NCBI GenBank assembly: GCA_003223295.1
Contig: QHYM01000107.1
Location: forward strand, 1 to 45,798
Source: Acidobacteriota bacterium
GTDB lineage: Bacteria; Acidobacteriota; Terriglobia; Acidiferrales; UBA7541
Reading direction: 5' to 3'
Length of the DNA: 45,798 bases
Below, piece by piece: positions 25,959 to 32,444 of the stretch (position 1 is the stretch's first letter; every line of letters starts with the position of its first letter). Under the pieces are notes generated by a model, which was not told the origin of the DNA, made no database searches, and saw only the letters and a program-made list of their open reading frames with translations. The translations under genes were made by a program, and so were the position numbers.

Positions 25959-27197
25959 ATGAGAATTGAGATGCTCGGAATCCTCTTTAGGTCCACACTC
26001 TGCGTTTCGACCGCTTTGCTGGTGGCGGCTGCCGTGAACTCCGACGATATTTCTACACGCGCCCGGAAACTACACTGTTCATCCATCGTTGTGGATACCC
26101 ACGACGACACGACCCAACGCTTTCTTGACGCAAAATTCGACATCGGCGCGCGCCATGCCGACGGCAGCATCGATGTTCCGCGCATGCGCGCAGGCGGTTT
26201 GGGCGCAATTTTCTTTTCCGTTTGGATTCCCAGCAAAGTCACAGGCCCGGACGCGGTTAATCGGGCACTTACACAGATAGACGCCGTTCGCGAGCAAGTG
26301 CGCGCGCACCCGAAAGACCTTGCCCTGGCGACCACCGCCGCGGAAGTTCGCACTGCGCACAAACAGGGCAAGATCGCGGCGCTTATGGGCGTCGAGGGCG
26401 GCCACATGATCAACTCCGACCTCGACGCGCTGCGCAAATTCGCCGGGCTTGGTGTTCGCTACGTGACGCTAACGCACAGCGGCAACTGCGAATGGGCGGA
26501 TTCTTCCACTGACAAGCCCGTTCACAATGGTCTTACCGATTTCGGCAAAGACGTCGTCCGCGAAATGAACCGCCTCGGTGTGATTGTGGACATTTCCCAC
26601 GTCAGCGACAAAACTTTCTACGACGCTCTCGAAATCAGCAAAGCTCCGATGATCGCATCGCACTCCTCATGCCGCGCCCTTTGCGACGCCCGCCGCAACA
26701 TGACTGACCAGATGATGAAGGACCTTGCCGCGAAGGGGGGCGTGGTGCAGATCAATTATCATTCGGGGTTCCTAAGCCAGGAATTCCTGAATGCGGAAGT
26801 GGCGAATCCGGAGATCAACAAGGCCATGGCTGCAGAAGTTCAGAAGCGGTGCGGAGACGACGAAGCCTGCCAGTTGATTGAAGGCGACCGTCTCACGCGC
26901 CAATACGTAGAGCAGGGAAAGTTGCCGCGCGTGGACTGGACGAAAATCATCGCACATATTGATCATGCCGTGAAAGTAGCGGGGGTAGACCACGTGGGCC
27001 TGGGCTCCGATTTCGACGGTGCCAATATGCCTTACGGCATGGAAGACGCTACCAAGCTTCCCAAAATCACCGATGCGCTTTTGAAAAAAGGCTATTCCGA
27101 AGGTGACGTAAAGAAGATTCTCGGCGAAAATACATTGCGCGTCATGGCTGAAGTGGAGGGCGTCAGCCGGGAACTGTCCAGGCAACCACGTAAATAG
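25959..27197 (+). CDS. exported M19 membrane-dipeptidase-type peptidase, copy 2
   Basis: Tandem paralogue of the preceding gene, about 412 residues, with the same signal-peptide layout (LFRSTLCVSTALLVAAA) and the same zinc motifs: VVDTHDDTTQRF, MGVEGGHMI, ISHVSDKTFYDAL, SHSSCRAL and GLGSDFDGA. The two copies are nearly identical around the metal site but diverge in the segments after KGGVxQINY, which line the substrate entrance. Different dipeptide preferences are therefore plausible. The start is uncertain: in-frame ATGs occur at 25944, 25959 and 25971, and all leave a signal peptide; I chose 25959. It is probably cotranscribed with copy 1. Confidence 0.88.
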   Translation: MRIEMLGILFRSTLCVSTALLVAAAVNSDDISTRARKLHCSSIVVDTHDDTTQRFLDAKFDIGARHADGSIDVPRMRAGGLGAIFFSVWIPSKVTGPDAVNRALTQIDAVREQVRAHPKDLALATTAAEVRTAHKQGKIAALMGVEGGHMINSDLDALRKFAGLGVRYVTLTHSGNCEWADSSTDKPVHNGLTDFGKDVVREMNRLGVIVDISHVSDKTFYDALEISKAPMIASHSSCRALCDARRNMTDQMMKDLAAKGGVVQINYHSGFLSQEFLNAEVANPEINKAMAAEVQKRCGDDEACQLIEGDRLTRQYVEQGKLPRVDWTKIIAHIDHAVKVAGVDHVGLGSDFDGANMPYGMEDATKLPKITDALLKKGYSEGDVKKILGENTLRVMAEVEGVSRELSRQPRK

Positions 27198-27240
27198 GAT
27201 TTGCTTCAACCCCGTTGACTCCAGAGGAGAAGGAACGACG

Positions 27241-28029
27241 ATGCGAAAATTAGCGGCAGTAATTCTTGTTGGTTTGTTTTATCTGACGATGCAAACGTGG
27301 GCGCAGACTTCCACGCAGGCTCCCGCAAAGCCGAAGCCAACGGCGCCCACCGCTGGCAAGCCTGCGGCGGCGGCAGCCACCTATGATCGAACTTTGCTTC
27401 GTCCCACGATGCTCAAAGAAACAGCTCCGGAAACGTTCCAGGTCAGATTCGAGACCACCCGCGGCGATTTCGTCATGACCGTCACCCGCTCCTGGGCGCC
27501 CATTGGAGTGGATCGCTTCTACAACCTCGTCAAGCATCATTTCTACGACAACATGGTGGTGTTCCGCGCCGTTCCGGGTTTCGTGGTGCAATTTGGTATC
27601 AGTTCCTACCCGGCCGTGTCTGCCGCCTGGAGCAAGGCCGATATAAAGGACGACCCCGTGACGCAGAGCAACAAGCGCGGGTTTGTGACCTACGCCAAAA
27701 CGCCGGCGCCCAACTCGCGCTCCACGCAGATCTTCATCAGCCTCCGGGACAACTCTTTTCTGGATACTCAGGGATTCGCGCCTTTTGGCGTGGTCGACGC
27801 GGCCGGCATGAAAGTTGTAGAGATGCTCTACGACCAGTATGGGGACCAGCCCACCAACGAGCAGGATCAGATCTCGAAGGCCGGAAAAGCCTATCTCGAC
27901 AGCAAGTACCCTAAGCTGGATGTCATTAAGCAAGCCACGGTGGTCGGCCCCGCGGCAGCGGCCACAGCTGCTCCCCCCAAGCCTGCGGCCCCCAAGGCCA
28001 CGGCTCCTCCGGCCCAAAAGCCGCAATAA
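27241..28029 (+). CDS. exported cyclophilin-type peptidyl-prolyl isomerase
   Basis: Periplasmic protein-folding catalyst of 262 residues. A signal peptide (to TWA, about residue 21) and a Lys/Pro/Ala-rich linker precede the cyclophilin domain (about 65-215): VRFETTRGDFVMTV, WAPIGVDRFYNLVKHHFYDNMVVFR, FVVQFGI, STQIFISLRDNSFLDTQGFAPFG. A second Ala/Pro/Lys-rich tail closes the protein, possibly contacting the wall. The catalytic Arg in VVFRAVPGF is present. An AGGAGAAGG ribosome binding site lies just upstream. It follows the two dipeptidases on the same strand and may share periplasmic proteostasis duty. Confidence 0.92.
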   Translation: MRKLAAVILVGLFYLTMQTWAQTSTQAPAKPKPTAPTAGKPAAAAATYDRTLLRPTMLKETAPETFQVRFETTRGDFVMTVTRSWAPIGVDRFYNLVKHHFYDNMVVFRAVPGFVVQFGISSYPAVSAAWSKADIKDDPVTQSNKRGFVTYAKTPAPNSRSTQIFISLRDNSFLDTQGFAPFGVVDAAGMKVVEMLYDQYGDQPTNEQDQISKAGKAYLDSKYPKLDVIKQATVVGPAAAATAAPPKPAAPKATAPPAQKPQ

Positions 28030-28092
28030 ATGATGCTCGGCATTGATTACTTTTTTGAATCTCATGCATCTAATCTTTTTGAGGTGGTCTCT

Positions 28093-28122
28093 TTGACAAG
28101 AACACCCCTCAGAAAGTATCCT
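28093..28122 (+). promoter_or_regulatory. promoter of the sulfite reductase leader
   Basis: A perfect TTGACA (28093-28098) and TATCCT (28117-28122) are 18 bp apart. The expected transcription start is about 28129-28131, at or within two bases of the ATGATG of the Cys-rich leader ORF, so the leader would be translated from an essentially leaderless mRNA. Confidence 0.75.
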
Positions 28123-28130
28123 GCTGCTTT

Positions 28131-28226
28131 ATGATGAACTGCGGCCAGATGATGTGTTGTCCCTGTGCGTGCAACGCTGCGTGTTGCATGTCACCCATCT
28201 CTGGCCAGAGGAGTTTCCGGACTTAG
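28131..28226 (+). CDS. Cys/Met-rich leader peptide (31 aa), candidate cysteine sensor
   Basis: Tiny ORF of 31 codons between a consensus promoter and an intrinsic terminator, ahead of the sulfite reductase genes. Cys occurs at positions 4, 9, 10, 12, 14, 18 and 19 and Met at 1, 2, 7, 8 and 20, so 12 of 31 residues contain sulfur; codons TGC and TGT cluster at 28155-28187. Such a density is not expected of a structural protein and resembles amino-acid leader peptides and the polycysteine leaderless ORFs described upstream of sulfur genes in mycobacteria. No ribosome binding site is well spaced, in keeping with leaderless translation. I infer that ribosome stalling at Cys codons senses cysteinyl-tRNA. 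Confidence 0.65.
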   Translation: MMNCGQMMCCPCACNAACCMSPISGQRSFRT

Positions 28227-28294
28227 CCTAGCTTAATCATCAAGTTCCGAAGCCCACTCGCCAGAAAAGCTGGTAAGTGGGCTTTTTTGTTTTT
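28143..28294 (+). promoter_or_regulatory. candidate ribosome-mediated attenuator (segments 1-4)
   Basis: By eye, four RNA segments give competing pairings. Segment 1 GGCCAGA (28143-28149) pairs perfectly with segment 2 TCTGGCC (28200-28206). Segment 2 (28201-28211, CTGGCCAGAGG) can instead pair imperfectly with segment 3 (28254-28264, which contains CTCGCCAG), nine pairs over eleven positions. Segment 3 is the 5' arm of the terminator closed by segment 4 (28270-28284). Segment 1 lies directly before the Cys codon cluster. This is the classic anti-antiterminator, antiterminator and terminator layout. It is inference from base pairing and has not been folded computationally. Confidence 0.5.
28250..28294 (+). 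terminator. intrinsic terminator in the sulfite reductase leader
   Basis: The outer stem AAGCCCACT/AGTGGGCTT (28250-28258 and 28276-28284) continues into the inner stem CCAG/CTGG (28261-28264 and 28270-28273) around an AAAAG loop. It is followed by a T-rich tract with a single G (28283-28294). It sits between the leader ORF and the sulfite reductase ATG at 28338, so unconditional termination would silence the operon; control by attenuation is the obvious reading. Confidence 0.9.
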
Positions 28295-28337
28295 AGTGAC
28301 GATCTTTCGCGAGGAATGGATTTGGGGGCCACGGTTT

Positions 28338-29573
28338 ATGACTGTCGCAACAACAAATGAAATCGAAGAAAGGCACAGCCGCGAAGCCATTGAAGCGGAG
28401 ATCGCGCATTTTGAAGAGCGCGCGCAGCAGCTTCGCAGCGGCACCATCACCGAAGAACAGTTCCGCCCGTTCCGCTTGAAGCACGGCACCTACGGTCAGC
28501 GCCAGCCGGGCTTCCAGATGTTGCGCGTAAAAGTCGCCGCGGGCGTGCTGAAGCCCTCGCACCTTCGCGTCTTGGCGCGGATTGCCGACGAATACTCCAC
28601 GGGCCGCGGTCATCTCACCACTCGCGAAAACGTCCAGTTTCATTTCGTCAAACTCGAGAATGTTCCCGCTGCCATGCGTTTGCTCGCGGACTGCGGGCTG
28701 ACCACGCGCGAAGCGTGCGGCAATACGGTGCGCAACGTGACCGCCTGCCCGGTCGCGGGCATTTGCCCCGGCGAGGCGTTTGACGTCACTCCGTACGCTT
28801 TGGGCGTTTCTCGTTACCTCCTGCGCCATCCGGATTTTCATGATTTGCCTCGCAAATTCAAAATCGCTTTCTCCGGATGCGCCGACGATGGAGGTTGCGC
28901 GGTTGCTGGCATCCACGATGTTGGTCTGATCGCACAGGTTCGCGGTTCGAACGGCACCGCCCACCGCGGCTTCAAAGTTCTTGTCGGCGGCGGGCTAGGA
29001 AGCCTGCCGACCGAAGCTGCCGTTCTCGTGGATTTCTTGCCAGAAGAGGAATTACTGCCGACGATTCAAGCCGTTCTCCGCGTCTTCAGCGAAACCGGCA
29101 ACCGCAAGAACAAGTTCAAAGCGCGCCTGAAATTCGTGCTGCGCGAAAAGGGCATCGACGAGCTCCGCCGCCTGGTCTTCGAGAAACGCAAAACCTCGCA
29201 AGCGCCTGCCGAAGTCTTCACCGCGCCTTCTCCGATCCAGCCGGCGCTCGTCAACATTTCTCCTGCTCCTTTGACCCTCGCTTTGGACAATGGCGCATCG
29301 GATTCCGAATACGACAGCTGGGCTGAACACAACCTGATGCCGCAGCGCCAGACGGGCTACGGCGCCATCTGGATCAAGCTCCCCGCTGGAACGTTTCACA
29401 GCCGTCAGATGCGCGGCCTCGCCAACCTTCTCGAAAGTCAAGATCTCACGGGCGTGCGCATCGCCGTCAATCAGGACCTGGTGATTCCGTGGGTGCCGTT
29501 CGACCGCGTGCGCGCCATCTACAATGAACTTCGCGCCCTCGACTTGGCTATTCCCGGCGCTCACCATTTCTGA
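28338..29573 (+). CDS. nitrite/sulfite reductase hemoprotein, N-terminal part (frameshifted)
   Basis: First ~410 residues of a siroheme nitrite/sulfite reductase, probably the assimilatory sulfite reductase that makes sulfide for cysteine synthesis. Ferredoxin-like half-domains are visible (FRPFRLKHGTYGQRQPGFQMLRVKV, GRGHLTTRENVQFHFVK, ACGNTVRNVTACP, FKIAFSGCADDGGCAV), then the second repeat (RQTGYGAIWIKLPAGTFHS). The frame stops at TGA 29571-29573 just after IPGAHH, immediately before the siroheme-cluster cysteines, which continue in the +1 frame. I start at ATG 28338, preceded by GGGGG; the frame is open upstream only through the terminator. As read, this piece alone cannot bind siroheme-[4Fe-4S]. 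Confidence 0.88.
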   Translation: MTVATTNEIEERHSREAIEAEIAHFEERAQQLRSGTITEEQFRPFRLKHGTYGQRQPGFQMLRVKVAAGVLKPSHLRVLARIADEYSTGRGHLTTRENVQFHFVKLENVPAAMRLLADCGLTTREACGNTVRNVTACPVAGICPGEAFDVTPYALGVSRYLLRHPDFHDLPRKFKIAFSGCADDGGCAVAGIHDVGLIAQVRGSNGTAHRGFKVLVGGGLGSLPTEAAVLVDFLPEEELLPTIQAVLRVFSETGNRKNKFKARLKFVLREKGIDELRRLVFEKRKTSQAPAEVFTAPSPIQPALVNISPAPLTLALDNGASDSEYDSWAEHNLMPQRQTGYGAIWIKLPAGTFHSRQMRGLANLLESQDLTGVRIAVNQDLVIPWVPFDRVRAIYNELRALDLAIPGAHHF

Positions 29574-30096
29574 TGTCACCGGCTGCCCGGGAGCCACCAC
29601 GTGTAACCTTGGCATCACGCGTTCGCTCACGTTGGCTGACGAACTCTCGCGCGCCCTGGAAGGCTACGACGATCCCGAAATCCAGAAGCTCCGCATCAAG
29701 ATCAGCGGCTGCCCAAATTCCTGCGGCCACCATCACATTGCGGATATCGGCTTTTACGGGAACATGCGGAAGATTGAAGACCAGCAGGCGCCCTACTATC
29801 AACTGCTCCTCGGAGGCAAAGTGAGTGCCGATGGCGTGCACTTTGGCCGTCAAATCATGGCTGTTCCTGCGCGCCCCATTCCTGCAATCATCCGCGAGCT
29901 CCTGGCCTTTTATCAGCGAGAGCGTCAGAGCGGCGAATCGTTCTCCTCTTGGGTGGGGCGTACGCCCGACAAAGCGATTGTCGAGCGGCTTCATCCGCTG
30001 ACGGAAGTCACGAACTCTACCGAAGACATTTTTCTCGATTGGGGCGATACCGAGACTTTTTCTCTTAAACTGGGCCGCGGCGAGTGCGCCGCCTAA
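29566..30096 (+). CDS. nitrite/sulfite reductase hemoprotein, C-terminal part (other frame)
   Basis: Continuation of the reductase in the +1 frame. It opens ISDVTGCPGATTCNLGITRS (Cys-x5-Cys) and goes on to KISGCPNSCGHHHIADIGFYG (Cys-x3-Cys), the four ligands of the siroheme-bridged [4Fe-4S] cluster. The C-terminal end LDWGDTETFSLKLGRGECAA completes a protein of about 585 residues in total, normal for the family. An ATG in this frame exists at 29524, but the residues it would add are not family-like. Either a base is lost or gained near 29560-29572, the site is recoded, or the gene is newly broken; the well-preserved C-terminal codons favour a recent event or a sequence error. Confidence 0.85.
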   Translation: MSDVTGCPGATTCNLGITRSLTLADELSRALEGYDDPEIQKLRIKISGCPNSCGHHHIADIGFYGNMRKIEDQQAPYYQLLLGGKVSADGVHFGRQIMAVPARPIPAIIRELLAFYQRERQSGESFSSWVGRTPDKAIVERLHPLTEVTNSTEDIFLDWGDTETFSLKLGRGECAA

Positions 30097-30108
30097 AGGA
30101 GCACATCG

Positions 30109-30252
30109 ATGAGTGCAGCACCAAATTCGAACGCAAACGCTGTAAAGGCTGGCCAACGCTGGAAGTTATCGCTCGACTCTTGGGCCGTCGTTGTTGCGCT
30201 TCTGGCGGCGCTGCTGGTTCGTGCGGGAATCTTCAAACACATTCCGTGGTGA
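30109..30252 (+). CDS. 47-aa single-helix membrane peptide
   Basis: Short gene with a good AAAGGA ribosome binding site (30095-30100). The product begins with a polar MSAAPNSNANAVKAGQ and has one transmembrane helix, WAVVVALLAALLVRAGIF, ending in KHIPW. It sits 12 bp after the sulfite reductase and 26 bp before the YeiH-type exporter, all in one direction. It may be a small subunit or assembly factor of the exporter; that is inference from position only. It is too short to assign by family resemblance. Confidence 0.65.
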   Translation: MSAAPNSNANAVKAGQRWKLSLDSWAVVVALLAALLVRAGIFKHIPW

Positions 30253-30278
30253 GAAATCCGCTCACGAGGAGATGACAG

Positions 30279-31364
30279 ATGGCTGATGTGCTTACGGTTC
30301 CCCAGGTCCAACCGGTGCAGCCTGCTTTGCGCTATTTGCGCGTGATACCGGGAGTGCTGCTGCTCTTTGCCATCGGCTACGCGGGAAAATTGCTCGAACA
30401 AAATGTCGGCGGGTACGCCAAATCGCACCACTGGACGTTTCCCAACATCGAATACGTTTTGTGGGCCATCGTCCTTGGCCTCCTCATTTCCAATACAGCG
30501 GGCGTCCCGGAGATTTTTCGTAGCGGCGTCGCCACCTACGAGTTCTGGCTCAAGGCCGGCATCGTGCTTCTGGGCTCGCGGTTTCTACTCGGCGACATTC
30601 TCAAGCTCGGTGGCGTCAGCCTCGTGCTCGTGGCCATCGAAATCACCGGCTCCATCGCCTTCATGACCTTCCTGGGCCGCGCTTTCAAACTCAAACCCAA
30701 GCTGACGTCGCTTCTCGCCGTGGGTTCCGCGGTTTGCGGCGTGAGCGCCATCATCGCTACGAAAGGCGCTATCGAAGCCGACGACGAGGAATCTTCTTTC
30801 TCCATCGCCGCGATCCTTGCGCTCGGCGCTTTCGCGCTCTTCACGTTTCCTGTGATTGGCCACTTCCTCCATCTCAGCGACAAGGCCTATGGCCTCTGGG
30901 CCGGCCTCGGTGTGGACAATACCGCGGAAGCCACCGCCGCTGGCGCGCTCTACTCTGACGCCGCAGGCAAGCTCGCCGTCCTCGTCAAGTCCACGCGCAA
31001 CGCCATGATCGGTTTCGTCGTTCTTGCCTACGCCATCTACTGGGCAAGCAAGGGAAAAGCTCAGGTGGTAGGGAACAAGCCCGCATTTCTCTGGCAGAAA
31101 TTCCCCAAGTTCGTGCTGGGTTTCCTGCTCATCTCCGTGCTCGCCACTTATGGCTTTTTCAGCAAGGATCAAGTCGGCGCGCTGGCCAATCTTTCCCGTT
31201 GGGCGTTCCTCTTGACTTTTGCAGGCGTTGGTCTCCGCACGAATTTTCAGGAAATGCGCAAGCAGGGGCTTCGGCCTTTCGCGGTGGGCGCGATCGGCGA
31301 GGTGGTCATCGCAGGGTTTACACTCGGTTTGGTTTACGGCGCAGGCAAAATCTTCGGCTGGTAG
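30279..31364 (+). CDS. YeiH/UPF0324-family putative sulfate exporter
   Basis: Ten- to eleven-helix membrane protein of 361 residues of the YeiH (UPF0324, Cons_hypoth698) family, annotated as putative sulfate or sulfite exporters. Recognisable family segments are YVLWAIVLGLLISNT, AGIVLLGSRFLLGDILKLGG, SLLAVGSAVCGVSAIIATKGAI, LGVDNTAEATAAGALYSDAAG, VKSTRNAMIGFVVL and AGVGLRTNFQEMRKQGLRPFAVG. A GAGGAG ribosome binding site is at 30266-30271. Being downstream of sulfite reductase and the same leader, it probably exports excess sulfite or sulfate. The transported species is not proven for the family as a whole. Confidence 0.9.
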   Translation: MADVLTVPQVQPVQPALRYLRVIPGVLLLFAIGYAGKLLEQNVGGYAKSHHWTFPNIEYVLWAIVLGLLISNTAGVPEIFRSGVATYEFWLKAGIVLLGSRFLLGDILKLGGVSLVLVAIEITGSIAFMTFLGRAFKLKPKLTSLLAVGSAVCGVSAIIATKGAIEADDEESSFSIAAILALGAFALFTFPVIGHFLHLSDKAYGLWAGLGVDNTAEATAAGALYSDAAGKLAVLVKSTRNAMIGFVVLAYAIYWASKGKAQVVGNKPAFLWQKFPKFVLGFLLISVLATYGFFSKDQVGALANLSRWAFLLTFAGVGLRTNFQEMRKQGLRPFAVGAIGEVVIAGFTLGLVYGAGKIFGW

Positions 31365-31436
31365 TTGGATTCAACGCAAGCAAATTGGCGATGAAGTGAT
31401 CCTGTGGTGCAGCTGGTTTCGTTCTGACGCCGTGCG

Positions 31437-32444
31437 CTATTCGCTTTTCCGCTGTTGCACGCCCTTCACCGCCCCGAGGATGAGGTTGTAGGCCGCCTGC
31501 CGCGAAATGCCAGTCTTGTCGTGATCGTCGTAAGGCATAGCTGCTACTCCGAACGCGCCCACCTTTTCGTACTTGAACATTTCCGTCAACGCCGCCGCTA
31601 ACTCCGCGCTCGTGGGCCCGTTCGGCACCGGAAGAGCCACGCCTGGCACTTCACGCGGATCAAGCCCGTCCATGTCCACGTGAACGTAAATCACGTCGGT
31701 AAGATCAGAGAGCCGCTTCATCTCACGGTGCAGGTTCGCCGAACGCGTACGCACATCCTCAAGCGTGAGTTGCTGAATCTCCGAGCGGTCCAACAGTTCT
31801 TGTTCAAGTGGGTCGGTATCGCGCACGCAAACTTCGACGATATGCCGCGTCGGCAGCGCCGGTTCCAGCCCAGCTTTCATGCGCATCCGGGTAAGGCATT
31901 GGCCCGCCGCGATGGCCACCGGCATTCCGCCGAGCATCCCGCTCAGGGTCGTCTCCGGCGTGTTGAAGTCGCCGTGCGCGTCAATAAACACCATGCCCAC
32001 GCGCAGCGGCTTCGCAGAAGGCCCGGAATGCTGCAAGCCGCTCAGCATTCCCAAAAGCCCGTTGCAGTTCGCCAGCAGCCCGAGGGGAAGAGAACCACGA
32101 CGCCGTTCGTCCACCAGCAACTTCGCCATGTCGCCGCTCGCCAGCGCCAGGTGATTCCATGAACCGTACGCCTTCTCTTCCTCCGTGCTTAACGCCACCG
32201 TCGCTGTCGGCTGCACCTGCACACCTTGCTGCTCTAGCAGCTTGCGAATGCCGCCTTCTTCCAAGTAGTCCGGCCCGCGCGACGTGTCCGGAACATTCCG
32301 TTCACCCACGTACGGCATCTTCACCAGCGCCACGCGCACCGGCTTCGTCTCGCTCTCGTGGCTCCTTGCTAGCGACATGGCTACAAATCCAAGCAGACCT
32401 GCAAAAACGAAAGCCTTCCAATGCCTCATTGCTTTTCTCGCCAT
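31437..32444 (-). CDS. exported arginase/agmatinase-family protein, divergent active site
   Basis: Ureohydrolase-fold protein of 335 residues with an N-terminal hydrophobic segment (FVFAGLLGFVAMSLA, about 12-26), unusual for this normally cytosolic family, implying export or membrane anchoring. Manganese motifs IDAHGDFNTPETT (about 154) and VHVDMDGLDPREVPGVALPVP (about 260) are intact. The first motif, normally G-G-D-H-S, reads LLANCNGLLG (about 123-132), so the first metal-binding His is absent. It may therefore hold one metal or act on a different substrate. The gene starts 4 bp after a small membrane protein gene downstream of mdh, all minus strand. Family membership is sure; arginine as substrate is not. 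Confidence 0.85.
   Translation of the reverse strand: MARKAMRHWKAFVFAGLLGFVAMSLARSHESETKPVRVALVKMPYVGERNVPDTSRGPDYLEEGGIRKLLEQQGVQVQPTATVALSTEEEKAYGSWNHLALASGDMAKLLVDERRRGSLPLGLLANCNGLLGMLSGLQHSGPSAKPLRVGMVFIDAHGDFNTPETTLSGMLGGMPVAIAAGQCLTRMRMKAGLEPALPTRHIVEVCVRDTDPLEQELLDRSEIQQLTLEDVRTRSANLHREMKRLSDLTDVIYVHVDMDGLDPREVPGVALPVPNGPTSAELAAALTEMFKYEKVGAFGVAAMPYDDHDKTGISRQAAYNLILGAVKGVQQRKSE

Follow-up and report, generated by a model that had tools for sequence, protein, structure and literature searches.

The locus analysed here raises the question of how a short reading frame rich in cysteine codons could control the nitrite/sulfite reductase (NIR/SIR) gene that follows it in an acidobacterium. 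It lies on the forward strand of a stretch of 45,798 nucleotides (the window), and the same strand carries all the features of the window given below. Sulfate assimilation in well-studied bacteria is under the control of transcription factors or SAM riboswitches (CysB, CymR, S-box), and the Acidobacteriota are a phylum with few cultured members. Another form of control, known from trp attenuators, combines a leader ORF with control codons, competing hairpins and an intrinsic terminator. As judged from the sequence, the element is very probably a ribosome-mediated transcription attenuator of this trp type, leaderless and reading charged tRNA-Cys. The Cys-rich frame, the possible pairings, the terminator, the gene context and the regulon all appear in the sequences and their comparison. 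A cysteine-sensing attenuator had been proposed from the window alone (the original prediction), and that reading is supported by the conservation of the Cys codons, the pairings, the terminator and the gene context. The observation and, largely, the interpretation stood, while the antiterminator, the pairing of segments 1 and 2, the regulon and the sister leaders for other amino acids had been missed.

Promoter and leader reading frame

A promoter scan placed the -35 box TTGACA at 28093..28098 and the -10 box TATCCT at 28117..28122, with 18-nt spacing and 8 nt between the -10 box and the start codon. Both boxes thus lie where they had been predicted, and they recur in 29 of the 30 aligned relatives (own sequence included), the L020 sequence ending too early to show TTGAC. 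The promoter-like match was unique in 27000-32000 and, with shuffles averaging 1.2, is weak taken alone. The terminator of the window would not stand out in a generic scan either, which found 6 against 6.4 expected. As both scans alone are at chance level, the case rests on comparison. The leader ORF (28131..28226), probably leaderless, contains 31 codons with the predicted seven Cys and five Met, translates as MMNCGQMMCCPCACNAACCMSPISGQRSFRT and ends with TAG at 28224-28226; its Cys-rich frame is found in the alignment as well.

Upstream of the -35 box, the 30-leader alignment revealed a conserved block, GATTACTTTTTTGAAT..ATGCATCTAAT (28045..28074), which is a possible activator site. The block was present in many, not all, of the 30 aligned leaders, and a search of the own genome with its motif gave one match. 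Blastn of 28040-28340 against 'plasmids' returned no match.

Conservation and distribution

Blastn of 28080-28345 gave a match in 30 of 101 genomes (own included), in some of them with the 3' part only; 29 of these belong to the genus and one is another member of the family. The 30-sequence alignment keeps the place of the start codon (29 ATG, one GTG), the Cys-rich frame, the CTGGC motif and the terminator, and the stop codon stands at the same place in all sequences except L024. A covariance model built from the 30 aligned leaders (R1; 29 precede NIR/SIR genes and one a siroheme synthase gene) matched 63 of 89 family genomes at E <= 0.001, a tally which, like those of the second model, includes leaders for other amino acids. 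R1 sees RNA only, and still led to sulfurtransferase and CysD leaders. At E <= 1e-4, the second model (R2), made from 40 diverse leaders, was matched by 109 of 399 class genomes, spread over 34 of 136 genera; within the genus, 33 of 36 genomes matched, own included. When 396 genomes drawn from the phylum were searched with R2, 14 matched, and the three matches outside the class were all weak (E 9e-6 to 5e-5). From these covariance models a new RNA family could be defined, and Acidobacteriota genomes could be annotated with them.

An exact short signature of the element was found on 20 named contigs, 19 of which are titled Acidobacteria, 10 of those 'gp2'. One contig with the signature is labelled Betaproteobacteria (L034, CAJCHZ010000039.1), and is probably a mislabelled record.

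Cysteine codons of the leaders

Among the covariance-model matches that were opened, a part of all matches, 86 distinct Cys leaders were recognised. Non-Cys leaders were left out of this set (L133, L083, L086, L091, L095, L096, L104 and L105), and the His leader L112 and the three from outside the class (L159-L161) were read apart. The 86 leaders have 23-34 codons (median 30) with 3-10 Cys each, Cys making up 20% of the residues, and UGY triplets occur 514 times in frame versus 171 and 76 times in the other two frames; the Cys richness of leaders found by the models is not independent of them, and was counted against the result. CTGGC is placed 23 nt upstream of the leader stop in 74 of the 86, and in 83 its distance to the stop keeps the frame, while the distances from stop to terminator are divided among the three phases (33/31/22). 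The last Cys codon stands at a median of nt 51 and segment 2, described below, at a median of nt 67.

Of the 86 leaders, 70 have a TANNNT hexamer at a distance of 5-10 nt from the start codon, on its 5' side, whereas six control windows gave 1 to 11 of 86. The start codon of ten leaders had been shifted from the first base of the model, partly with the -10 in view. TTG occurs in the -35 region of 63 of those 70. The placement of the -10 hexamer suggests that the transcript probably begins at the start codon of the leader, and we infer leaderless initiation at these start sites and translation of the frame. Leaderless genes average 13.3% in three Acidobacteria genomes in the accessible part of a sequence-based survey (PMC3160421). 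With this element, leaderless initiation could be tested directly in a transcription attenuator.

A lack of Cys-codon conservation in relatives had been named beforehand as an outcome that would refute the prediction, and this test left the prediction standing. In 25 gap-free sequences of the genus, seven codon positions were mostly Cys, six of them being Cys in the window, and UGU and UGC were exchanged at several. Leaders of dissimilar sequence keep 3-10 Cys in varying arrangements. The Met codons, for which a second signal had been suggested, did not behave in this way: they are not conserved among the leaders, and internal Met is absent from 18 of the 86. Two of the four internal Met codons of the window leader lie in segment 1. 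A second signal is not supported.

Synonymous changes were not in excess in the leader frame of the genus set (0.304 vs 0.312 and 0.291), and general purifying selection on the peptide was thus tested for and not found. The result fits a peptide in which only the Cys codons matter and is no proof of translation. It would also suit a riboswitch or a protein-bound RNA that controls the terminator, the ORF being incidental, as would the structured leader and the strong nucleotide conservation in the 30-leader alignment. Such an RNA is nevertheless highly improbable. No Rfam family was found at gathering score, a permissive search gave nothing above the cut-off of any family, and none of the curated Rfam riboswitch or T-box models matched. 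Moreover, the frame is kept, the Cys codons persist in unlike sequences, most leaders have the stop codon where segment 2 ends, and in sister elements the place of Cys is taken by the amino acid of the pathway encoded downstream.

RNA segments and pairings

The fold of the window leader contains two helices. Segment 1 (GGCCAGATGATG, 28143..28154), located just 5' of most Cys codons, pairs with segment 2 (CATCTCTGGCC, 28196..28224), which ends on the first base of the stop codon. This pairing (GGCCAGA.GAUG with CAUC.UCUGGCC) was obtained in the fold and in the RNAalifold consensus, and agrees with the swap test described below. The other helix is the intrinsic terminator (28249..28294), composed of the hairpin of segments 3 and 4 at 28249-28285 and a U-rich tail, with an energy of -24.5 kcal/mol and z -5.25 against shuffles; the terminator is where the prediction had put it, and its hairpin is strong by this measure. 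When the RNA was cut before segment 4, one long antiterminator hairpin was formed by segment 2, through the strand CTCTGGC..GG..GTTTC.GGACTT, and segment 3 (AAGTTCC.GAAGC.CC.CT.GCCAGA, 28242..28265). Segment 3 serves as 3' strand in the antiterminator and as 5' arm in the terminator.

All 86 leaders gave the 2:3 antiterminator when folded from segment 2 onward, the median number of pairs to sequence 3' of the stop being 21. Mutually exclusive 1:2, 2:3 and 3:4 pairings are possible in the RNA, and are weaker in part of the 86. The GCCAG/CUGGC core hardly varies, which can be explained by its use in all three pairings. For the terminator, 93.1% of cells were paired over 40 leaders.

A strict terminator pattern has three separate hits in the own genome (6.03 Mb), and all three are attenuators; the pattern misses the terminator of the window and that of the aromatic leader. 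Its restriction to attenuators speaks against the idea that the product of the ORF is a functional peptide, acting through its thiols or by binding metal, and that the terminator is an ordinary one. The Cys content, up to 10 in 23-34 residues, would suit a peptide of that kind, but sub-families vary freely in peptide sequence and in the spacing of Cys, and non-Cys sister leaders exist, which makes this the least credible of the explanations considered.

Pair counts gave a mixed picture for the attenuator helices. None of 500 shuffles equalled 2:3 in cells paired or in covariation score, whereas the number of covarying pairs was not above shuffles (497 of 500 as high) and a 2:3 helix slid by -2 had the same covariation score. 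One edge pair of 2:3 was C-G in 20, U-A in 11, A-U in one and unpaired in 8 of 40 leaders. For 1:2, the covariation score was 0.097, a value reached by 11 of 500 shuffles, and two slid versions scored higher (0.134 and 0.104).

Swap tests, in which partners are exchanged among dissimilar leaders, are cleaner. Segment 2 was chosen by best pairing in the first of them, and 2:3 and 1:2 were repeated in fixed windows with those 24 of the 36 representatives that have the common geometry. No permutation in 20000 was as good as the true partners for 2:3 (z -4.9, n=24), for 1:2 (z -4.6, n=24) or for the stop-region helix (z -5.9, n=36). Without the terminator arm, the stop-region helix gave z -3.3, with 24 of 20000 permutations as good, and two control pairs of regions gave z +0.4 and +0.8. 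A swap test on 47 leaders, a set which mixed close relatives, agrees (0 of 5000 permutations as good).

Predicted operation of the switch

The effect of a ribosome was modelled as a footprint on the RNA. In the window leader, a footprint on any of the seven Cys codons led the RNA up to segment 3 to fold into the 2:3 antiterminator, and with a footprint on the stop codon 1:2 folded and then the terminator 3:4. Without a footprint, RNA up to segment 3 preferred 2:3 and the full-length fold contained 1:2 and the terminator. Over the 86 leaders, a stall at the first Cys codon gave 2:3 in 78 and a stall at the middle one in 62; 2:3 was also obtained in 43 with no ribosome. With the ribosome at the stop, the terminator was formed in 86 of 86, 2:3 was absent in 65 and 1:2 was formed in 53. 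In 82 leaders, segment 1 is touched by a ribosome whose A site holds the first Cys codon. In full-length folds, the terminator was formed despite a stall at the first Cys in 81 of the 86. This implies that antitermination must be kinetic, the antiterminator having to last for the time that the polymerase needs.

According to the mechanism proposed, RNA polymerase would initiate at or beside the leader AUG and a ribosome would load at the 5' end of the RNA. If Cys-tRNA were short, the ribosome would wait on the Cys codons, covering segment 1; segment 2, being free, could pair with segment 3 and sequester the 5' arm of the terminator, and the polymerase would continue into the sulfite reductase operon. 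With plentiful Cys-tRNA, the ribosome would get as far as the UAG, where segment 2 ends, and mask this segment, so that 3:4 would pair and transcription would stop. With no ribosome, 1:2 is made first and should favour termination. Ribosome stalling, the kinetics and the sign of the response are thus what we infer for this locus.

Cys stalling might also alter translation of the downstream gene without any effect on termination, by attenuation or coupling, and leaderless Cys ORFs of mycobacteria are so described in the accessible parts of two papers (PMC13236596, PMC9031893). For the present leaders this is very unlikely, because the terminator hairpin, formed in all 86 with the ribosome at the stop, stands between leader and gene, and in the window 111 nt separate the leader stop (28226) from the ATG at 28338. 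Transcription attenuation remains the preferred reading.

A G-rich, Shine-Dalgarno-like stretch was observed about 8-14 nt before the leader stop, at a fixed distance. A GGAGG in this place could hold the terminating ribosome on segment 2, a proposal which is compatible with the attenuator and is regarded as rather doubtful. Affinity for the anti-SD is highest 8-11 nt ahead of the stop, reaching -6 kcal/mol or better in 69 of the 86 leaders versus 11.2% of 374 control ORF stops; of 11 leaders that are non-Cys or from outside the class, most show the peak too. Antiterminator pairing, however, can explain the stretch without a ribosome, and mostly does: of 430 nucleotides, 289 are paired with the CCCAC arm or with the pre-terminator.

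Genes behind the leaders

The NIR/SIR gene of the window begins at 28338 (first frame, 28338..29573) and its remainder is in another frame (29524..30096), with a break near 29560. The reading frame is continuous in the relatives L156 and L157, and the break is an assembly error or a recent frameshift. A sulfite reductase had been predicted here; the gene is present, but its frame is broken and its family match, to nitrite/sulfite reductases in general, is below the NCBIfam cut-offs. NIR/SIR proteins may reduce nitrite, and the Cys leader itself is a main reason for calling this one a sulfite reductase. It is followed by a small protein of 47 aa (30109..30252), the "membrane peptide" of the prediction, which is kept in L156 and L157 and has no Pfam match, and by a putative exporter of the YeiH type (30279..31364; PF03601, with TIGR00698 below cut-off).

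The genes downstream of the 86 leaders fall into 12 clusters, each named from one or two members: nitrite/sulfite reductase family (43), two-domain sulfurtransferase (14), CysD (9), single rhodanese (7), siroheme synthase (5), and one each of CysK, YeiH-type (PF03601), TauE/SafE, DUF2292, outer-membrane beta-barrel protein, porin and PQQ dehydrogenase. One leader has no gene in the stretch downstream. Counting the rhodaneses and the YeiH gene, 81 of the 86 are sulfur-linked; four precede genes without a clear sulfur role and were counted against the result. The own genome has two further Cys leaders, before a sulfurtransferase gene (C140) and before cysD-cysN-cysH (C80). The phylum appears to sense cysteine at the ribosome, at many separate operons.

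YeiH-type (PF03601) and TauE-type genes were seen with Cys leaders of their own in L129 and L155, which links both transporter families to cysteine control. Cys leaders were also noticed before outer-membrane beta-barrel, Porin_5, PQQ dehydrogenase and DUF2292 proteins (L147, L148, L151 and L145); uptake or use of organic sulfur is a possible role of these genes.

Comparison with known systems

Canestrari is said to have described, in 2020, polycysteine leaderless short ORFs of mycobacteria; cysA2 is the gene of thiosulfate sulfurtransferase. The original prediction compared the locus with these ORFs. The likeness holds in that a Cys-rich ORF, leaderless there and probably so here, precedes sulfur genes, cysA2 included in mycobacteria, in the parts accessible of the papers on them (PMC9031893, PMC13236596, PMC4633059). 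It does not extend to the terminator: the mycobacterial Cys run is C-terminal with no conserved terminator hairpin (PMC1262725), and translation attenuation is described in the accessible text (PMC13236596), whereas here the last Cys codon stands at a median of nt 51 and a terminator is present.

Attenuators of the trp and his type share with the present leaders the control-codon leader ORF, the competing hairpins and the terminator before cognate genes (his: PMC4046918, in its accessible part), and a codon-rich leader ORF, an intervening terminator (by computed hairpins) and exclusive pairings were all found here. The present leaders differ in their Cys codons, in probably having no 5' untranslated leader, in belonging to Acidobacteriota and in serving many separate sulfur operons. 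Cys-codon attenuation with an intrinsic terminator has been predicted for uORFC-8-2, before cysS in Rhodobacterales; it has two tandem Cys codons, a tRNA synthetase gene and an alphaproteobacterial host, compared with 3-10 Cys and sulfate assimilation genes here (PMC8632094, accessible part). A tandem Cys pair before cysS was not found, none of the 12 clusters of genes behind the leaders being cysS. In Streptomyces lividans, LeuL2 and TrpL1 resemble the present leaders in having a leader peptide, leaderless there and probably so here, followed by one or more hairpins and a U-rich stretch, and differ in amino acids and phylum, going by the available text (PMC8079986).

According to the accessible part of a 2010 survey, hardly any of the attenuators predicted in phyla such as Acidobacteria has an associated function (PMC2965389). 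A cysteine attenuator in Acidobacteriota was not found in our literature search, with most subscription papers outside its reach. The ingredients are each known elsewhere; their combination and the regulon were not found in the searchable literature. The leaders give a regulatory meaning to short ORFs that annotation likely misses, and tie YeiH-type and TauE-type genes to cysteine control.

Sister leaders for other amino acids

Among the matches opened, nine non-Cys leaders of like build had control codons fitting the gene behind. Three of them are in the own genome: a Trp/Tyr leader before DAHP synthase (L083/L164), a Thr leader before aspartokinase (L086/L165) and a His leader before hisG (L112/L166), which starts about 0.4 kb past the terminator. 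Ile-Val-Val-Val-x-Leu-Val leaders precede ilvB in four cases, one of them checked by model, and a Thr-Thr-Ile-Met leader precedes asd and a Leu/Val/Ile leader ilvD. The ilvB, asd and ilvD leaders of family and class relatives are L091, L095, L096, L104, L105 and L133.

This match of codon to gene is the strongest argument for amino-acid sensing. We give about even credence to the wider proposal that sulfate assimilation is under direct cysteinyl-tRNA control across the class through one shared leaderless module, with a threefold use of GCCAG/CUGGC and a CCCAC..GTGGG terminator, which would have been copied to other operons and re-aimed at His, Thr, aromatic and branched-chain amino acids by exchange of the control codons.

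Outside the class, an O-acetylhomoserine sulfhydrylase-like (metY-like) gene follows a Met-rich leader (L160, G580), and a cysteine synthase-like gene follows a Cys-Cys-Cys leader (L161, G685). By eye, a metX-like gene was also identified behind the former leader, and JAMM-like and MoaD-like genes were seen to follow the cysteine synthase-like gene in the latter.
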